Origin: Chlorobiaceae bacterium
Lineage (GTDB): Bacteria; Bacteroidota; Chlorobiia; Chlorobiales; Chlorobiaceae
Assembly (NCBI GenBank): GCA_013334865.1
Contig: JAAXWS010000019.1
Location: 1-46,595, forward strand
Direction: 5' to 3'
Length of the DNA stretch: 46,595 nucleotides
The position numbers were made by a program, and so were the translations under genes. Of this stretch, positions 330 through 46,595 are shown piece after piece; position 1 is the stretch's first letter; every line of letters starts with the position of its first letter. The notes beneath the pieces are model-generated. The model had not been told where the DNA came from. It made no database searches and saw only the letters and a program-made list of their open reading frames with translations.

Positions 330-976
330 GATCGGATCTCCTGAGGCAACAGGGTTGTCCATCCAAAGTGTGCGCAAACAGCTCGAAACAGTGCCTCAAT
401 CTCTTCAGCAGCTTTACCGTCTGGTTCGTATTCGAGAACGGACAGGCCTGCTGTAAGTGAGTGGACAAAAGCGACCCTTTGCCCGAGAGTTGCGGGCGCA
501 AGATCGAGTCCATAACCTTTCAGGACCTGCTCAGCGTCCGCCCGCAGGCCGCCTTTTCCAGGAACCGTATTGAGCACGGCAAGTGACGGCGTTTTCGCCA
601 AGGAAGCGAGGTCAATCGTGGTACTTATAGCTTTCAGATCCAGCAAAGAAGGGCGGCATGGAATCAACACGAGATCAGCAGCTCGCGCAGCGGCAAGCGC
701 TGATGATTCCGAGTGCGGTGCCGTATCGATGATGACGAGATCTGCGCCATTTTTTTTAGCTGCTTCAATGACCGCCGGGAGACGTGATGCCTGGATAGAC
801 ACCACCACCGGAGAGTCACTCCCGCGAAGATCATGCCAGCACTTTGCGCTTGCTTGGGGATCAATATCGATGACGGCAGATTGCCAACCGGAACGCTCAG
901 CAGCGACAGCGAGATTCAGTGCAATGGTCGTCTTGCCCGCTCCGCCTTTCTGGGATATGATCGCTATGGTTTTCAT
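326..976 (-). CDS. parA: ParA-family partition ATPase
   Basis: A 216-residue ParA/MinD-type ATPase. The deviant Walker A motif KGGAGKTT is at residues 10-17, and the Walker B-like segment VIIDTAPH follows near residues 100-107. It has no N-terminal HTH extension, so it is the small type Ib form (ParF/delta-like) that segregates or stabilises plasmids and integrative elements together with an RHH protein. The partner gene overlaps its 3' end by 4 bp. The ATG at 976-974 is itself inside the first CATG box of a phased array, so expression is probably autoregulated by the partner protein. It likely stabilises the excised circular form of the element. Confidence 0.9.
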   Translation of the reverse strand: MKTIAIISQKGGAGKTTIALNLAVAAERSGWQSAVIDIDPQASAKCWHDLRGSDSPVVVSIQASRLPAVIEAAKKNGADLVIIDTAPHSESSALAAARAADLVLIPCRPSLLDLKAISTTIDLASLAKTPSLAVLNTVPGKGGLRADAEQVLKGYGLDLAPATLGQRVAFVHSLTAGLSVLEYEPDGKAAEEIEALFRAVCAHFGWTTLLPQEIRS

Positions 977-1057
977 GTTTGCCTGGTTTCATGTTTGCTT
1001 GATGGCATGTCATCATGTAGACATGCTGACATGCCCACATGATTGCCTGGCTGCATG
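974..1057. promoter_or_regulatory. Phased CATG-box array, probable partition site/operator
   Basis: CATG occurs at 974, 990, 1006, 1014, 1022, 1030, 1038 and 1054. The three missing positions of the same 8-bp register (982, 998, 1046) hold CCTG, CTTG and CCTG. This makes eleven tetramer boxes, each separated by 4 bp. The 16-bp blocks starting at 974 and 1038 match at 13 of 16 positions. The array fills most of the gap between the HTH gene and parA and includes the parA start codon. RHH partition proteins of the ParG type are known to bind degenerate tetramer boxes separated by short spacers upstream of the par operon. A centromere and operator role here is inference. Confidence 0.6.
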
Positions 1058-1887: not shown

Positions 1888-2652
1888 TCAGATGTTGGCA
1901 TCAATAAGTGCCCGAAAGTTGCACAAAATAGCCTTAGCTATTAAGTCGTTAGGTGCTTTACGTACATGGGCGATAGCATCGATCGTAGTTTGAATGCTAG
2001 CAGGCTCTGCCAGTTTATTGTCAATCTTCGTAAACGGGCCGTCCGTCTCAGTGATGATGCGACTCAAAGGTAGCTCGGAGACAAGCGCCTGGCCGCGATC
2101 GGAACGGATCATCTCGGCATTGACAGAAAAATAGCAACCGAGGGCTGCAGCTCGTCGTGCCTCGGACTTGGTTCCAGTGAACCAGTGCAGCACAACAAAG
2201 CCACGGTCCTGAGGAAAATGGCTTTCGATCATTTCGAGCACCGTTGGTACGCAACGGACGCTATGTACGGTAAGTATTTTACCGCCGACATCCGCACATC
2301 GTTCAAGAACAGTGCGAAACACCTGTTTTTGAGCATCGAGCGATTTATAGAACCGGGGACCGGCATCAAGTCCAACCTCGCCGATGTAGCGTGCCTCTGG
2401 TAGATAGTGTTCCCACAAGACCAATTCTCCAGCCCGTTCCGCCACGAGTTGCGGATGTAGGCCAAGCGCGGCCCGCACATAGCGCGTATGGTGCGTCAGC
2501 TCGTGATTGCGAGGCCAGGCTTTCGGCGTAGTGGTGACGGTCAACGTGTAAATCCGCGCCGCCTCCGCTCTCGCTATCACGGCATCGAAGTCGGGATAAA
2601 GATCGAGGTGGCAGTGGAAATCGACACCACCGGGCTGGACATCATTGCTCAT
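1888..2652 (-). CDS. qatD: QatD, TatD-like metal-dependent nuclease of the Qat defence system
   Basis: A 254-residue TatD-family amidohydrolase-fold protein. The metal ligands expected of the family are visible: HCH at residues 13-15, glutamate in GEVGLD (E92), H130, H156 and aspartate in TETDGPF (D204). The enzyme is therefore probably catalytically intact. TatD proteins are metal-dependent DNases. In this position, last gene of a KAP ATPase - QatB - QueC-like - TatD-like operon, it is the QatD component of the Qat anti-phage system. Its start overlaps the qatC stop by 4 bp. Annotated alone it would probably be called a housekeeping TatD hydrolase; the context argues against that. Confidence 0.88.
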   Translation of the reverse strand: MSNDVQPGGVDFHCHLDLYPDFDAVIARAEAARIYTLTVTTTPKAWPRNHELTHHTRYVRAALGLHPQLVAERAGELVLWEHYLPEARYIGEVGLDAGPRFYKSLDAQKQVFRTVLERCADVGGKILTVHSVRCVPTVLEMIESHFPQDRGFVVLHWFTGTKSEARRAAALGCYFSVNAEMIRSDRGQALVSELPLSRIITETDGPFTKIDNKLAEPASIQTTIDAIAHVRKAPNDLIAKAILCNFRALIDANI

Positions 2653-4019
2653 CCGGGCTGTGTCGTCACCGCGGCCAACAGCGTGCCCACTTCTTCGATG
2701 CCACGACGATAGACATCGGCAAGAGAGGCTTGACGGGCTGGCGACTCGTCGAAGAGTGGACCGGGTTTGTGGATAAGTATGGGCGCCAAGGCTGGCCTGA
2801 CGCGAAGTCGTTCGATCGCAAGCTGGAAGGAACGGATCTGCACACCTTCGGATTGGCGCGTATCAAGAGCTCGAGCCGTCAAGTTATCGATCGTGTAGAC
2901 GGTCGGGTCACCGCCGGCGCCAAACCCTATGAGCAACGCTGCGCGCCGAATCAGGCATGGCAGGCAATAACCGCAATGCTGAGTGCTGAGGCCATGAAAG
3001 CGTCCCTTGACCGGCGCTGCACAGGACAAGGAAATTGGGGTGAGGTTCCTCAAGAAAACTCCGTTTGCGCATGCTGTCACCATCTCGCCCTTCGTCTTAT
3101 CCCAGTAAGGGTTCTCGATGCGGCCATCGATACCGAGAGCGGCGAGAGCTTCGTTCCAGCGGGCGATGTAGAACGGGTGGGTAGTGCGTGTGCTCAGCGC
3201 CCCGAGGCGGAGGGGGTCGAGCGGTACGTTGACCGCGATCAAGCCATTCTCGGGAACCTTCAGAGTGAATGCGCTACCGAGTCCGCTGCCTGCGAACACG
3301 CCCAAGGCGAAAAAGAGAAAGGATCGTCCCCGCGTGGTGTTCTCGCCATCCGATCCCTGAATGAATCCTTGTGGAAAGGCCATCCAGAGGCGCAAGCGCT
3401 GGAACGGATTGCTCGGATACTGGGCCTTCAACGCATCGAAGATTGAGGTCTGGGCGTCGCTTGTCGCGCCCTCTCCAGCGTGGCTTATGAGAAGCGGCGT
3501 GCGGCCGGCTTCTAGCGAATCGATCGCACCGATCAGGCTATCGAGACCGCCGGAGAAGAGCGCGAGATCGTTGAAGGGCGGGCTGATGAGGCGGCCTGGA
3601 GGCATCGGCGCGACCCGTGTAAAACTACGCGGCCTCGCTCGGAAACCGAGTAACCAGCGATCTCCGGTCAAGAAATTCAGCATCCGGACCAATATTGGTG
3701 CTGCCGCTGTCCAGCGAGCAGTATCAGAGACCGGTACAATTAAACGCAACTCCCGCGTCCAGCCATCCTGAGACTCGCTATCACGCGATACTCGGGTATC
3801 GGCAGCATGGACGTGCGCGGCTAGAACGAGAACGTCAGTCCCCATCTCAGATGGATATACGCCAAGCCGAGACAGATCGCTTAGTGCGCGACCGATCCCG
3901 TGACCCAGAGTTCGGTCACCGTCGATCAAATCGAACCTTGTTGCGAATTCGCTGTTGTCGAGCGGTACTCGTGCTCGGTCGCCTTGGCCGTAGTGGCCGA
4001 TGATAACGTGTCGTCTCAT
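2649..4019 (-). CDS. qatC: QatC, QueC-like protein of the Qat defence system
   Basis: A 456-residue protein with a PP-loop ATP-pyrophosphatase motif SGGLDS at residues 156-161 and a C-terminal cysteine set (C333, C349, C352, C355; CGYCLPC) like the zinc site of QueC. QueC makes the 7-cyano-7-deazaguanine precursor of queuosine but is about half this length. The roughly 150-residue N-terminal extension and the surrounding genes mark this as QatC rather than a tRNA-modification enzyme. It overlaps qatB and qatD by 4 bp each, so the operon is translationally coupled. The biochemical reaction of QatC in defence cannot be read from the sequence. Confidence 0.88.
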   Translation of the reverse strand: MRRHVIIGHYGQGDRARVPLDNSEFATRFDLIDGDRTLGHGIGRALSDLSRLGVYPSEMGTDVLVLAAHVHAADTRVSRDSESQDGWTRELRLIVPVSDTARWTAAAPILVRMLNFLTGDRWLLGFRARPRSFTRVAPMPPGRLISPPFNDLALFSGGLDSLIGAIDSLEAGRTPLLISHAGEGATSDAQTSIFDALKAQYPSNPFQRLRLWMAFPQGFIQGSDGENTTRGRSFLFFALGVFAGSGLGSAFTLKVPENGLIAVNVPLDPLRLGALSTRTTHPFYIARWNEALAALGIDGRIENPYWDKTKGEMVTACANGVFLRNLTPISLSCAAPVKGRFHGLSTQHCGYCLPCLIRRAALLIGFGAGGDPTVYTIDNLTARALDTRQSEGVQIRSFQLAIERLRVRPALAPILIHKPGPLFDESPARQASLADVYRRGIEEVGTLLAAVTTQPG

Positions 4020-4897
4020 GCTCCCTCCGCCTCAGCATTACCCATGATCTGCAAGATGCGAAATGCCTGTTCGTATATGCCTCCGACGAAGGTGAGCACG
4101 CGATCGGGTGTCAACGCTGACATCGCTGCGCGCGCCGTTGTCAGGGCGTCGGCGACAGCGCGCCGAATGAAATCATTCAACTGCGCTTGGACTCGTGCGG
4201 CTTGCCTGATGTCGGAGGGAAGGATCACCGTCTTTGTGCCAATATCGTTGCATAGTCGAGACTCGATCGCGTTCGTCGCATAGAGCTCAAAGACCGTCTG
4301 CATCTGGTCGGAGGTGAGCCCGTCGAGGTTAGTGATGCCCGCTCCGGCAAGATCGGCGATCGTCTCAATGAAGGCTTCTCGCGCGATGCCCTCGTCGATG
4401 GTGCCGCCGTCTGGGCATACATAGTCAGCCAGTCCGAGGAAGATTTCCTCAATCGGCCGACCGGCGAGAGCACCGAGATTGAGCGCTCGGAGCGCCTCTG
4501 TCGCACCACGCGTGACGGCTTCCGACAGAAACCCGAGGAGACGGCTGCCGACTCCTCGGGCTGATCCCATCCTTGCCGCCGCCGTTCGCGCGCCGCCCGA
4601 AGACGAACCCACATAATGCGACACGGCACGACCGAGAGCTCTGCGATCGTTCCCGTCCGAACTCGCGAAGCGGGAGAAGTTGTTTCGAGCTCTGGAAAAG
4701 CGTGTGGGATCCGCAACTGGGGGAATAGGCGGCCTCGCCGGCGGCGCTGGTGGTCCAGCAGGCAATTCAACCGGGGGCGCGCCATTAGGGGCTGCCCCGC
4801 TGTCTGGTGCAGCTGGGGGCGAGCCTTCATTGCTCAGCCAACTTGGGATGAGCGGTGTGCCACCACTTTGGCCGCCGAATGCGCTGGATGTACCCAT
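4016..4897 (-). CDS. qatB: QatB, Qat defence system component
   Basis: A 293-residue protein with a low-complexity N-terminus rich in proline and alanine (residues about 25-65, many PP and PA pairs), followed by a predicted alpha-helical body. No enzymatic motif is visible. It is identified as QatB by its place between the KAP-type ATPase and the QueC-like gene in the conserved qatABCD order. Its ATG shares one base with the qatA stop (TAATG), and its stop overlaps qatC by 4 bp. QatB is required for Qat defence in published work, but its biochemical role is not evident here. Confidence 0.8.
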   Translation of the reverse strand: MGTSSAFGGQSGGTPLIPSWLSNEGSPPAAPDSGAAPNGAPPVELPAGPPAPPARPPIPPVADPTRFSRARNNFSRFASSDGNDRRALGRAVSHYVGSSSGGARTAAARMGSARGVGSRLLGFLSEAVTRGATEALRALNLGALAGRPIEEIFLGLADYVCPDGGTIDEGIAREAFIETIADLAGAGITNLDGLTSDQMQTVFELYATNAIESRLCNDIGTKTVILPSDIRQAARVQAQLNDFIRRAVADALTTARAAMSALTPDRVLTFVGGIYEQAFRILQIMGNAEAEGA

Positions 4898-6879
4898 TAG
4901 CGTGCTCCCTGGCGTGTACGATGCACGCCGTTGGCCGCAACCTTAAGCATCGCTCCGCCATCCCGCCCCCAAAGCTGTAGGAGAAGATTAAATCGTTGTG
5001 TGTGTTCTCTATCCTTGAGAGCGCTTTCCCAGCCGCTGCAGACCCATGGACCCAATCGGTCCAGAGGAAGTGCTTCGAGAAAGTCTAGAAGGTTGCTCTG
5101 AAGCGTGGGGTGCGCTTTGACGAGCACCGCCAGGCCATCCATACCGGGAGGCTCTGTGTCGAAACTGTCGCCGCCGACGATGCGGCCACGCACCGCCTCA
5201 AAGACCTGTGCGGCTTCGGTCGGTGCGAGCCGCTTCAAATCGCCTTCGAGCCCCTGAACTGAGAACTTGCTGCCAAAAAGCTGCTCGACGACGGTGGCCA
5301 AATGTCCGAGCACAGAGGCTGCGCCGAAATAGTCCTTCCGATCCTTAGCGACGAACAGATAGGGCCGAAGATCATCGCCCCCGATCTTCGTAGGTACAGC
5401 TGCCCAAGCCTTAATGGCGGGCGACGATAGCCATTCGCCTAGCAGCACGCTCTCTGTGGCTTTCGAGGCCATCACCTTTGGAGCTGGTTTGGCCGCATCG
5501 CCACCCTTGCTTGCAGTCGTCTTGGCTGGCGAGGTCTCACCCTTATCATCTTCTTTCTCAGTGGCAACTGATTCGAGCGCGACCAGATCCGGACATTTGC
5601 CATCCGGTGCGGCGGCGGCCGCAGCGGCGATCTGGTCAAACAGGCGGGGAAGAAATCGCTCGGCGAGCATGAGCTTGGCTAGAACGGGCAGCTTGACGTC
5701 ATCCCCGAATCCGCGCGCTTCGGCTGTTTGTTGCCGCAAAACGAGCGTGTTAAGAAATCGCTTGATCTGACGAGGATTCCCCTTCGTTCCGTTAGCAAGA
5801 ATCGGTCCAATCTGATCACTCAGCGCCAAGGCATTATTGGTTCGTGCCGCCTTGTCACCAATCGCGGTTTTGACTGTCGGAGCATCAAGCGACCCGCTGG
5901 TCCAGGGCCGTTTCAGCTGCTCGCGGGCAACGCCGATCAAGTTGATAAAGTCCGGATCGTTTTCGCCGAGTTCGGCGCCCACAAGCAGTAGCGTAACATA
6001 GATGCGCGTCTCAGTGTCGCCGAGAGCCGGAATACGAAAAGGCACTTGGATGAGCTTTTCCAAATAATTCCTAGCATAGGTCTGCGGCCCAGTCGAGTCT
6101 GGCAGGTCAGGGAAATGTTTGCGAACCGCATATTCGATCATCGCTTCATCGGCAGCTACGACGAACGCTGTTCGTGACGTGAAGACGAAGAGTCGCACGG
6201 CTTCAAGCGTCTCGATGGCCGTGTCGGGGAGGCAACGATCGAGGTCATCGATCAGAACAACCAATTGCTCGACACCTGCTTTGTCGAGGAGTTCGTCGAA
6301 CGCCTTGCGAAAGGCGCTTATCTCCTCGGGCACGTTAGTCGAGTCGCCTTCACCTACCGGTTTCAATAAACCTTTGAAGTTTCCGATAGCGGTCGAAACG
6401 TTTTCTTTGGTGGCAAGCTTTGAGGGATCGGCGAGAAAACCTTCCAGTGTGCCAACGATGGCCTGAATCAGCTCAGGTGTCGGAAGTCCCGTGTACGCGG
6501 TAAACGCCAGACCACCTGCCTTTTTCGCGACCTTAAGCCAGTCGATCCGACGGAATACAGCCTTCACAGCTTCACCCGCCTTGGTGAGCACGGGCCTCTT
6601 CTCTACCAACCCGGTGACGATACCCTCGATCAGTGCGATCTTGGCGTCTTCAAAGCCTTGAAAGCGCCAACCGTTGAATTTAAGACACAGAACATTCGCT
6701 TCATGTTCGAAGCCAGCCTCTATCATCTCGAGTACGCTCGATTTTCCGGCGCCCCAATCGCCATGGACACCGACGGTCACTGGCTGATCTGGTCTGTCAC
6801 GAAGGAGCCTGATGATCGTCGTGGCAATCGCCTCGTTGTTGAGAAGATCAACCTTGGTCTCGTTGTCAGTCAGGATCAT
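4897..6879 (-). CDS. qatA: QatA, KAP-family P-loop ATPase of the Qat defence system
   Basis: A 660-residue KAP-type P-loop NTPase. Walker A is GVHGDWGAGKSS at residues 37-48 and Walker B is LVVLIDDLDR at 206-215, followed by the CLPDTAIETLEAVRLF segment typical of KAP proteins. Residues about 440-475 form a lysine- and alanine-rich low-complexity linker, and the C-terminal part is helical. KAP ATPases recur in defence systems as sensors or energy-coupling subunits. It is the first gene of the qatABCD operon. The upstream region is strongly AT-rich and probably holds the promoter. The start at 6879 is preceded by a weak GGGAAG ribosome-binding site. Confidence 0.9.
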   Translation of the reverse strand: MILTDNETKVDLLNNEAIATTIIRLLRDRPDQPVTVGVHGDWGAGKSSVLEMIEAGFEHEANVLCLKFNGWRFQGFEDAKIALIEGIVTGLVEKRPVLTKAGEAVKAVFRRIDWLKVAKKAGGLAFTAYTGLPTPELIQAIVGTLEGFLADPSKLATKENVSTAIGNFKGLLKPVGEGDSTNVPEEISAFRKAFDELLDKAGVEQLVVLIDDLDRCLPDTAIETLEAVRLFVFTSRTAFVVAADEAMIEYAVRKHFPDLPDSTGPQTYARNYLEKLIQVPFRIPALGDTETRIYVTLLLVGAELGENDPDFINLIGVAREQLKRPWTSGSLDAPTVKTAIGDKAARTNNALALSDQIGPILANGTKGNPRQIKRFLNTLVLRQQTAEARGFGDDVKLPVLAKLMLAERFLPRLFDQIAAAAAAAPDGKCPDLVALESVATEKEDDKGETSPAKTTASKGGDAAKPAPKVMASKATESVLLGEWLSSPAIKAWAAVPTKIGGDDLRPYLFVAKDRKDYFGAASVLGHLATVVEQLFGSKFSVQGLEGDLKRLAPTEAAQVFEAVRGRIVGGDSFDTEPPGMDGLAVLVKAHPTLQSNLLDFLEALPLDRLGPWVCSGWESALKDREHTQRFNLLLQLWGRDGGAMLKVAANGVHRTRQGAR

Positions 6880-7385: not shown

Positions 7386-8333
7386 TTACGAAGTCCTTAT
7401 CAAAGCAATCCGCGTCTTATACGGAAGCCACACAAACTTACAAATACGACTTTTACCGGTAGGTTCGCCTTTGGCTTTGGAGAGAATATCCCAGACCGAG
7501 TTCCTGCTCAAATCGGCAACACCGGTTTTGGAACGGTAGGTAAAATGCCCGCAGAGCCACTCGCGAATCATAGTCCAGGATTCATGCAGAAGTCCGTTAT
7601 AGGAAAGCCTACGAAATACTTCGACGAGGCGGTTCTGGTTGCCGTTAAATATCAGTTTGTGATCAACAGGATGTCCTTGGAACAATGCTTTCAGAGCCGG
7701 GCGGTCAGATGGATCGAAAAACACTTCCAAGCAACCAAGCAGGTCTGCAAGGCGCTCTGGGGTGAGATTTAACTTAATGGAAGATGGATGACCGGCTGAA
7801 GCACTCTCCTGCTTCCTGATTACTTCCGTTTGGTCAATGACATCCGCACACTCAGGAAAGGTCTGCCGAAGCGATTGCATGAATGCAGGGCCGATGCTAC
7901 CGTGGCGGTAATGCAGTTCTTCGAAGAGGTAGGATAGGGCCCGTTTGAGCGTGACATAGACCCCCTGGAGGGTGTCGTAGCCTTCGTCGAGGTCGTTGAT
8001 GAATTCGGCGTTGTAGAGTTCGGAGGAACGGTAGTGATCAATCTTCGGAACCTGCAACCGAAGGTATTCCTGACGGCGGTCACGATATTCGTAGGGGATT
8101 TCGGGAGCGCTCTTCTGCACGTTGGCCTGAGCAAGTTTATCAACATCCCTTATGCGCCCGAAGACGAAGGTGACCATTTCTTCGAGTTCATGGTCAGAAA
8201 GGCTAGAGACAAATGGCTTTTCTGCTCCAGGACTTGTTCTGGTGACGCCGCAAAGAACTTGCAGGTCTGATGATTGCATCAGCCGATGGCCAATGTATTC
8301 CCACTTTTGCTGCTCGTCATCATGCGTCGTCAT
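7386..8333 (-). CDS. Unrecognised integrase-associated protein
   Basis: A 315-residue soluble protein with no motif I can name securely. The N-terminal half is charged and helical. The C-terminal third (KLIFNGNQNRLVEVFRRLSYNGLL and onward, ending with a basic tail) has the pattern seen in mobile-element proteins of Bacteroidota such as the RteC family: a short strand, a leucine-rich helix, then an acidic-basic helix pair. The resemblance is by eye and weak. It overlaps the upstream integrase gene by 14 bp, so the two are co-transcribed and coupled. A role in controlling integration or excision is inference from that linkage. Confidence 0.7.
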   Translation of the reverse strand: MTTHDDEQQKWEYIGHRLMQSSDLQVLCGVTRTSPGAEKPFVSSLSDHELEEMVTFVFGRIRDVDKLAQANVQKSAPEIPYEYRDRRQEYLRLQVPKIDHYRSSELYNAEFINDLDEGYDTLQGVYVTLKRALSYLFEELHYRHGSIGPAFMQSLRQTFPECADVIDQTEVIRKQESASAGHPSSIKLNLTPERLADLLGCLEVFFDPSDRPALKALFQGHPVDHKLIFNGNQNRLVEVFRRLSYNGLLHESWTMIREWLCGHFTYRSKTGVADLSRNSVWDILSKAKGEPTGKSRICKFVWLPYKTRIALIRTS

Positions 8334-9498
8334 CGTCGTCTCCGGTTGATATGCTCGGCATAAGGGCTATCGTGTTCCGCTTGGTCCTCGGCTGGATTTT
8401 TGCGTAGCGCATCGTGGTTTTACGATCACGGTGTCCAAGGATCTCGCCCACGGCATCAAGGTCGGCTCCTACATTGAGCAGCATGGTGGCGCCGGTATGG
8501 CGGGCCCAGTGTGGCGACAAATCCTGGCAGGCCCAGCTGAAATGGGTTCTGATTTCGGCCGACAACTCATCTCCATGTTTATCATAAGCCCGCTTGGCCC
8601 ATGTCTTGAGCATGGTGCCATACCATTTCTTGTGCCCTATATCGAAAATCGGTTCGTGCGGCTTCGGTTCCCTTCCCAGCCGGACCTTGGCCAATTCCCT
8701 GGCCTGCTTGAGGTAGACCATCCCCTGCTGTGCAATCGGGATCGACTCGATCCGCTGCTTTTTCCCTTGCCGGAAATAGACCTCGAAACCGCCATCGGAA
8801 GAAGGGCGGATGTTCGCTTCCGACAACACGGCAAGATCCCCTGGACGCACCGGCACGAAGCAGTTGAAGAGGAATGCGACGCGTCGTCCTTTATGACGGT
8901 GGGGCGTCTTATCAAGGAGCATGATCTCTTCGAAGTAGAGGTATTTGATCTCCCCTTCCCTCTCCTGTATCTGCTTGACCAGGTCGTTCGGGTTTTCCTT
9001 GATATGGCCATCCCGGACTGCCATCCCGATCGCCTGCCGGATTTTGGTCGAATAGGTCCGAGCCGTGTTCTGGGAATAGTTTTCCAGCAGATGAGACTGG
9101 AAATCACTGAGCCAAGCTTTGTCGATCTCCCCGAAGGTAAGGCCGTCAGTCTCGCAACGGGCCAGACTCTTTATCGCATCCTGCCAATTTTCCTGGCTCT
9201 TTTTGTTGACGACCTTATCAGCTATCCGCTGACAATACAGGATGAAGTCCCCTTTACGATGCCCTTCGTTGGCAGGTTTCATGCCGGCAGCAATGCTGCT
9301 GAGTTCAACTTGACGCTTGGCCATAACATCCAGGCAAAACTGCATGGCTGCCCTGTACTTGCCCTTGTCTTTCGGGTCGGCCACCATGTTGAGTGGCTCA
9401 TACACCCTCGTCCCGCTGTCATAAATCTCGATGAAAAATGAATGCCACCCTTTCCGATCCTTGGCGTTCAACACCCTGTGCTTGAGCTTCAGTCTCAC
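8320..9498 (-). CDS. Tyrosine-type site-specific integrase
   Basis: A 392-residue tyrosine recombinase of the kind common on Bacteroidota and Chlorobiota integrative elements. An N-terminal AP2-like arm-binding region (residues 1-75) is followed by a SAM-like core-binding domain (about 80-180) and the catalytic domain. Catalytic residues are visible: R218 (VRPGD), H330 and R333 (HWARH), H356 (LGHRD) and the nucleophile Y365 (MRYAKI). It ends in a run of aspartates. The start is a GTG at 9498, preceded by a strong AGGAGGA ribosome-binding site. Its position beside the 3' end of a tRNA-Val gene fits integration at that tRNA. Confidence 0.93.
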   Translation of the reverse strand: MRLKLKHRVLNAKDRKGWHSFFIEIYDSGTRVYEPLNMVADPKDKGKYRAAMQFCLDVMAKRQVELSSIAAGMKPANEGHRKGDFILYCQRIADKVVNKKSQENWQDAIKSLARCETDGLTFGEIDKAWLSDFQSHLLENYSQNTARTYSTKIRQAIGMAVRDGHIKENPNDLVKQIQEREGEIKYLYFEEIMLLDKTPHRHKGRRVAFLFNCFVPVRPGDLAVLSEANIRPSSDGGFEVYFRQGKKQRIESIPIAQQGMVYLKQARELAKVRLGREPKPHEPIFDIGHKKWYGTMLKTWAKRAYDKHGDELSAEIRTHFSWACQDLSPHWARHTGATMLLNVGADLDAVGEILGHRDRKTTMRYAKIQPRTKRNTIALMPSISTGDDDDDA

Positions 9499-9664: not shown

Positions 9665-9675
9665 TACGGGGTGTG

Positions 9676-9749
9676 TGGGCGGTAGAAGATTCGAACTTCT
9701 GACCTCTACCGTGTCAAGGTAGCGCTCTAACCAACTGAGCTAACCGCCC
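9676..9749 (-). tRNA. tRNA-Val(GAC)
   Basis: A 74-nt cloverleaf on the minus strand. The acceptor stem GGGCGGT pairs with ACCGCCC, with discriminator A. The D arm is GCTC-AGTTGGTTA-GAGC. The anticodon stem CTACC/GGTAG encloses TTGACAC, with anticodon GAC at 9715-9713. The T arm is AGAAG-TTCGAAT-CTTCT. CCA is not encoded. The gene sits 60 bp after clpX on the same strand. Its 3' end faces the integrase gene, as expected of a tRNA used as attachment site with the 3' portion restored by the element. Confidence 0.95.
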
Positions 9750-20322: not shown

Positions 20323-21330
20323 ATGAAGAAACAGCTTATCCTTTGGGCAGGACTCACGGCCATATTCCTGATGCTCCTCGCGGCATCAGTCGCCGCCAAT
20401 CAGCTCTACAGCCTCTCGCTGCTGATCGGGGCGATACATCCCGTCGCCGGCTACGCATTCCTGGCCCTTTGGGCCCTCTTTTCCATCGTCGTCCTGCTCT
20501 CCGGCTACAGGATCTGGGCCGCACCAAAGGTTCCGCCGTTCGCCGAACGTGAGGGGGGCAGGAATTTCGACGCCTACATAGCCTACCGCTCGAAGGTGAT
20601 GCCGAGCCACCCGTCGCACCCCGACAACGGCCGCAAGAGCGGCGACCTGAGGTGGGTGCGCACCAACCTGAAATTCCTCGAGGTGGACGCCCTGAACGCG
20701 ACCAAGAAGATGGCAAGCAAGAACTTCTTCATCGGAGCCTTCGCCCAGAACACCTCCTACGGCACGAATACCTCGCTGTTGAACAACCTCAAGCTTGTCT
20801 GGCGCATCTACGCGATGCACCACAGGAAGCACTCGCTGAAAGAGTTCATCATGCTGCTCAGGTCTGTCTACGCCTGCCTGCCGCTGTCGGACTTCGAAAA
20901 GGAGGATCTCCCGGCGCATATCAAGCCGATTATCCAGTGCGCGTTCAGCAACACCCTGTCCTCCCTTCTGCCCGGAGGCAACCTGCTGACGCCTGGCTTC
21001 CTCAACCTGTTCCTCGCCGGGGCGACCAACACCTACCTGACCTGCCTCTGCGGCATCATGACCTCGCGCCACTGCCAGATGCTCTCGCTCGAAGACCGGC
21101 AGGGACTCGTCCAGCAGAGCATGTTCGAAGCCTCCTTCATGCTGAAAGAGATCGTCAAGGAGAACAACCCCATTCTGTCGGTGACCATCAGCAACGCTGT
21201 CAAGAAAGCCGGCATCGAAAGCCTCAACACCGTCCCGCTGCCCACGCCGGGCAGCAGCGTCGCGCAGGATATCGTCTCCCACCTCGCCAACTCCCTGAAG
21301 AACATCATCAAGGAGACGGGACACGAGTGA
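20323..21330 (+). CDS. Membrane protein, DUF697-like
   Basis: A 335-residue protein with two N-terminal membrane segments (residues about 5-25 and 44-65), then a mostly helical cytoplasmic domain. The later part (LLPGGNLLTPGFLNLFLAGATNTYLTC, with a following helix pair) resembles the DUF697 region of YcjF-like proteins, but the match is by eye. The start MKKQLILWAG at 20323 is chosen because it begins with a typical membrane-protein N-terminus; an ORF start at 20248 adds 25 charged residues in sequence that looks intergenic. It follows the flavoprotein gene by 124 bp. Function is unknown. Confidence 0.7.
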   Translation: MKKQLILWAGLTAIFLMLLAASVAANQLYSLSLLIGAIHPVAGYAFLALWALFSIVVLLSGYRIWAAPKVPPFAEREGGRNFDAYIAYRSKVMPSHPSHPDNGRKSGDLRWVRTNLKFLEVDALNATKKMASKNFFIGAFAQNTSYGTNTSLLNNLKLVWRIYAMHHRKHSLKEFIMLLRSVYACLPLSDFEKEDLPAHIKPIIQCAFSNTLSSLLPGGNLLTPGFLNLFLAGATNTYLTCLCGIMTSRHCQMLSLEDRQGLVQQSMFEASFMLKEIVKENNPILSVTISNAVKKAGIESLNTVPLPTPGSSVAQDIVSHLANSLKNIIKETGHE

Positions 21331-21399
21331 GCCGTTGATAGTGGATAGTTGATAATTGATAGTTGGGCAGAGAAGGAACGAGCTCAAGGGACATCACCA

Positions 21400-28884: not shown

Positions 28885-29158
28885 TATGGGATAGTAACGA
28901 TTGCAAAAGATTCGTGACACGTGACACGCAACGCGTGACAAATGACTGGAATAAAGGTAAAGTTATGCGTTTTCAGACGAAAATGTCCTATCGACGAGAG
29001 TTTCCCCCTGTAATCCTGAGCGAAACGTAAGATCCATTCAAGACGGAACTGCCTGTCGCCTTTTCTCATCGCTCGTCACGTGTTACGCGTCACGCGTCAC
29101 GGATAGTTACTTGTCACTCTTAAATCGTATCTTCAGGGCAAACAACGAAAATCATCCC
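28885..29158. repeat. Divergent spacer bounded by inverted CACG repeat clusters
   Basis: The spacer between the SDR and ABC-F genes holds two CACG-type clusters in opposite orientation: GTGACAC units at 28913-28940 and TCACGCG/TCACGTG units at 29074-29101. They bound a unique core of about 130 bp. Both gene promoters must lie here. No other feature is evident. Confidence 0.5.

Positions 29159-45251: not shown

Positions 45252-46595
<1,344 letters not shown>

Follow-up and report, generated by a model that had tools for sequence, protein, structure and literature searches.

What does a run of short DNA boxes do when it is set in strict register and stops at the start codon of a parA gene? The question is raised by an array at 974-1057 (minus strand) in a 46,595-nt stretch of Chlorobiaceae DNA, which we call the window. 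The original prediction had read there eleven boxes in exact 8-bp register ending at the parA start, and the sequence confirms it. We consider below how unusual the array is, what protein would bind it, how widely its spacing is shared, and which of several functions fits it best.

The array and its operon

Eight of the boxes are perfect CATG (974, 990, 1006, 1014, 1022, 1030, 1038, and 1054) and the remaining three fall in the same 8-bp register with one mismatch each (CCTG at 982 and 1046, CTTG at 998). The core consists of five contiguous perfect boxes (1006-1041, minus strand). The box at 974 shares its CAT (974-976) with the start codon of parA on the minus strand. The 46.6-kb window contains 273 copies of CATG (5.9 per kb); a simple binomial estimate puts the chance that at least eight of eleven boxes would fall into register somewhere in it at about 1e-11. 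Nowhere else in the 2.4-Mb genome are three CATG spaced in 8-bp phase, and within the window CATGNNNNCATG is confined to the array (4 matches vs. a shuffle mean of 0.98). In a composition-aware period scan of the 46.6 kb, the site at 974 had a period-8 score of 39.4 and no other period-8 site scored above 12. A promoter scan was uninformative; it found no good sigma-70 promoter within the array, a point against the reading favored below. Elsewhere in the window, short imperfect repeats are present at 28915-29105 (GTGACACG/CGTCACGCGTCACG) and 21326-21370 (GTTGATAGTGGATAG); they are intergenic or nearby and unrelated to the par locus.

The operon layout is also as had been claimed: parA (326-976) is directly followed by an RHH gene (72-329), both on the minus strand and overlapping by 4 bp. 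ParA, 216 aa long, is a type Ib-like ATPase with a deviant Walker A (KGGAGKTT at residues 10-17) and no N-terminal HTH domain. It matches NF041546 with 194.7 bits (cut-off 180), and its best sequence matches among solved structures are a ParA (5u1g) and ParF. It also matches the VirC1 Pfam family weakly (25.6 bits; cut-off 24). Three features of type Ib systems are found here: a ParA with a deviant Walker A and without an N-terminal DNA-binding domain, a small RHH partner gene directly downstream, and, by sequence, a repeat array upstream.

The RHH protein, the putative centromere-binding protein, belongs to PF20605 (Antitox_RHH; 70.9 bits) and has no match to the ParG family PF09274. In its model, residues 6-16 form a predicted N-terminal helix, and the RHH helices span 47-60 and 64-78. 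In a fold search with this model, ParG was the top PDB match, followed by CopG and Arc, none of them reaching significance (E <= 0.001). Of 21 RHH relatives, all match PF20605 and two match ParG weakly (best E 0.032). Each of the 21 PF20605 members examined adjoins a type Ib-like parA, and the name Antitox_RHH may be misleading for annotation. An N-terminal motif, KKxSLAxAL, is conserved in the RHH family; in the model it is matched by the helix at 6-16, and it is a candidate for contacting ParA.

The layout has known counterparts. Tetramer boxes alternate with spacers in TP228 parH (PMC7308502). In pP62BP1, AATACTCA is repeated seventeen times in 8-bp units, an array described as apparently unique upstream of parA (PMC3346939). 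As in these ParG-type (type Ib) systems, of which TP228 parFGH is the example, a ParF-like ATPase precedes a small RHH protein, and tetramer boxes with 4-bp spacers repeat every 8 bp upstream of the ATPase gene (PMC7308502, PMC3346939). The differences are a CATG box where those systems have ACTC, an RHH protein of PF20605 and not of PF09274, and boxes that are mostly near-palindromic. The delta/omega/parS system of pSM19035 similarly joins an RHH partition protein to contiguous short repeats, at least four of which are required for ParA activation (PMC9499535); the window has five contiguous perfect boxes. There, however, the repeats are heptads (period 7 rather than 8), and the RHH family and the operon arrangement are different.

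The array belongs to an integrative element. Reading leftwards on the minus strand, the order is tRNA-Val(gac) (9675-9749), a tyrosine recombinase or integrase (8320-9498), a complete QatABCD anti-phage system carried as cargo (1888-6879), an HTH_17/excisionase-like gene (1089-1436; a candidate excisionase or element regulator), the array, parA, and the RHH gene. Past the RHH gene the contig runs for another 71 bp, and its end is also the start of the window. Since tRNA-Val also adjoins the integrases of homologous elements (in the genome G026 and two further relatives), it is the probable attachment site. Directly after the integrase lies a gene for a 315-aa protein (7386-8333) that recurs beside the integrase in related elements and matches no known Pfam or NCBIfam family. 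At the far end of the window is a CRISPR-like array (45252-46570) with about 19-20 copies of GTTTCAATCCACGCGCCCACGCGGGGCGCGAC and spacers of ~34 bp; the ORF at 45380-46384 that spans it is false.

In G026, a one-contig genome, the par module lies inside a VirB-type integrative conjugative element (ICE) at tRNA-Val. The order there is integrase, HTH, parA, RHH, a DUF3363/VirD2-like relaxase, a VirD4-like coupling protein, and VirB-type genes. No direct repeat of at least 16 bp was found flanking this element in the stretch examined for att repeats. The window, which starts at a contig end, has the integrase and tRNA-Val, and a search of its genome limited to the relaxase and VirB4 families of G026 found neither. 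Par modules have been proposed as stabilization systems of Tn4371-like ICEs, where type Ib ParA and ParB are near traF, a VirD2/RlxS-like relaxase and traG; no phased repeats were seen in that account (PMC2789088). The present case is alike in having a type Ib par module on an integrative element, and differs in that the element is of a Chlorobi type at tRNA-Val and its copy in the window is without the transfer genes of its G026 relative.

Conservation of the pitch and of the boxes

Is the 8-bp pitch peculiar to this locus? Collections of genomes, viral contigs, and plasmids yielded 185 ParA loci, of which we retained the 134 whose RHH gene matches the family profile. (Loci were recovered with the ParA alignment; the RHH protein alone, used as a query of viral contigs, gave no confirmed relative.) The 180 bp upstream of each parA were scanned for repeated 4-bp columns at periods 5-14. 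Period 8 was best in 119 of the 134 loci, and in 100 of 113 once redundancy was removed; among 604 control windows taken at the same loci, it was best in 49. Against dinucleotide shuffles of the same sequence, 101 of the 134 loci reached z >= 4. The shuffles are the cleaner null because the control windows are largely coding and favor multiples of three. As a positive control, we scanned four plasmids that have an annotated ParG. Period 8 came out in every one, three of them scoring modestly, and one carries TACTCA units, which contain the ACTC box. Two further loci in the control scan, without ParG annotation, had periods of 8 and 7. The 8-bp pitch is thus widespread in a ParA-RHH family that is itself broad and spans several phyla. 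The original prediction had proposed looking for the phase upstream of parA homologs and regarded its absence from all the close ones as fatal; it is present in most.

The CATG boxes are conserved among nearer relatives. Phased CATG is found upstream of parA in G009 (95% ParA identity; parA and RHH proteins 94-95% identical to those of the window), G026 (76%), G034, and G032. Between the window and G026 (75-76% ParA identity), the fraction of identical letters is 0.86 in the boxes vs. 0.59 in the spacers. The idea that the class is specific to chromosomally integrated elements does not hold: the phased layout, several times with CATG itself, is found before parA on plasmids (of Methylococcus, L034, and pDE4 of Sphingobium, L042) and on IMG/VR viral contigs.

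The array is also not universal and can be lost or replaced, since three fairly close Chlorobi relatives (L007, L008, and L010, in G045, G043, and G003; 64-66% ParA identity) lack it. They keep the ParA, RHH, and HTH genes, and no period-8 array was found upstream of parA or displaced within the surrounding 19-20 kb. Their RHH strands read KKPLTVWF, KKPMTVWF, and KKSMTVWF. In G032, an in-frame fusion joins the beginning of parA to the RHH domain (L046, 8895-9251), apparently through an internal parA deletion, and the phased array upstream is kept. Two genomes of the window's own family (L016 and L017) have a distant ParA (42% identity) with a period-8 AAAG/GAAA array directly before the start codon.

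Box letters and the RHH recognition strand

In CopG/Arc/MetJ-type recognition, a beta-strand enters the major groove of DNA. The pitch is fixed in the family and the letters of the box vary, and they vary with the strand. CATG arrays go with KKAVTVWF or KKAMTGYF, TGCA arrays with KHVGGYF and SHIGGYF, TATA with KLIGGHF, CACA with RKAIAAYF, ATGT/ACATGT with KKAIAGHF, and GCAC/GCGC with VNIAGYF. We measured the covariation by Mantel-type correlations in 57 non-redundant arrays. Box similarity correlated with beta-strand similarity when RHH helices and ParA were controlled (partial r = 0.256, p = 0.0005), although Mantel tests leave some shared ancestry in this correlation. The helices had no such relation when strand and ParA were controlled (r = -0.03). 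The box can be predicted from ParA similarity as well (partial r = 0.249).

Within the strand, the signal alternates. The equivalents of the outward residues A40, T42, and W44 jointly gave r = 0.375 (p = 0.001), with similar values at two other cut-offs, and the K38 equivalent also carries box signal. The inward equivalents of V41, V43, and F45 have none (r = 0.05). Such alternation is as would be expected of a beta-strand lying in the major groove. The original prediction had taken the 4-bp box and 4-bp spacer as a ParG-like layout of a class that RHH proteins recognize, and the tracking of box identity with the recognition strand supports this. Whether the PF20605 proteins paired with NF041546 ParAs form a broad family of centromere-binding proteins, in which positions 40, 42, and 44 encode the box at a fixed 8-bp pitch, is a proposition to which we give an even chance.

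What the array is for

Very probably, the array is where the operon's own RHH protein (72-329) docks, and it looks like a functional centromere or operator. We think it likely that it is both, the operator and the centromere of a type Ib partition operon on an integrative element. The genome lacks the relaxase and VirB4 that the related conjugative element carries, yet has retained the array, which counts for this reading. At each near-palindromic CATG box, 8 bp from the next, a single RHH dimer would place its paired beta-strands in the major groove. Binding to contiguous boxes would be cooperative, the DNA becoming wrapped or coated by the protein. Because the array reaches the start codon of parA, the bound RHH protein is proposed to repress the parA-rhh operon. 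It could also present its flexible N-terminal tails to ParA and stimulate it, and ParA would then move or anchor the circular (excised) form of the element, contributing to its segregation. We favor this mechanism because of the anatomy of the locus and the precedents of TP228 and pSM19035.

Could the array be an operator only, with the RHH protein autoregulating parA-rhh in a relic of a plasmid-like ancestor that no longer segregates? The overlap with the parA start would suit such a role, as would the integrated state of the element in a genome where neither the relaxase nor the VirB4 of the related ICE was found. But parA, the RHH gene, and the array are all intact and conserved (the proteins are 94-95% identical in G009, and the boxes are kept among relatives), eleven boxes over 84 bp are long for a simple operator, and the RHH proteins of the type Ib systems described combine two tasks, forming the centromere complex and repressing. 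We therefore regard loss of segregation as unlikely. A role in transfer rather than partition is less likely still. In Agrobacterium, VirC1 and VirC2, also a ParA-like ATPase and its DNA-binding partner working at a specific site, act at overdrive in T-DNA transfer, and ParA and the RHH protein at the array might likewise help to assemble or position a relaxosome. The weak VirC1 match of ParA and the position of the G026 operon, directly before the DUF3363/VirD2-like relaxase and VirD4-like protein of a full VirB-type ICE, speak for it. The array, however, persists in the window's genome and in G009, where the G026-type relaxase is absent, the relaxase and T4SS (VirB4) of the related ICE being the partners such a role would call for; and related arrays are found on plasmids typed as non-mobilizable (Nostoc, Gloeobacter, Calothrix, and Methylococcus).

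Two further readings have little to recommend them. The HTH_17 protein (1089-1436) could bind the array and control excision: it is of a DNA-binding family, its gene is adjacent to the array, and HTH genes are conserved at this place in close relatives. This is most improbable, given that the three array-less Chlorobi loci retain the HTH gene, plasmid loci carry the array without such a gene, the box letters track the RHH strand, and the array is ~7.3 kb away from the integrase gene. A functionless short repeat, arisen by chance or drift, might be invoked because other short repeats exist in the window. We give this virtually no credence in the face of the binomial estimate, the family-wide 8-bp phase with differing letters, and the better keeping of boxes than of spacers.

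To our knowledge, few plasmids have had their type Ib centromere worked out. The array had been thought to represent an undescribed class, which holds for the CATG box and the RHH family and fails for the layout, known from TP228 and pP62BP1. Three things appear to be new with respect to the open-licence literature, where we found no description of CATG centromeres: the specificity for CATG, the general occurrence of an 8-bp pitch among PF20605/NF041546 pairs, and the covariation of strand and box.

For the family, the results suggest that PF20605, named for antitoxins, includes many partition proteins. With box letters that covary with three strand residues, both RHH beta-sheet recognition and plasmid incompatibility can be put directly to the test. 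If the proposed encoding is true, the centromere sequence, and with it plasmid incompatibility, would be predictable from the RHH protein alone.
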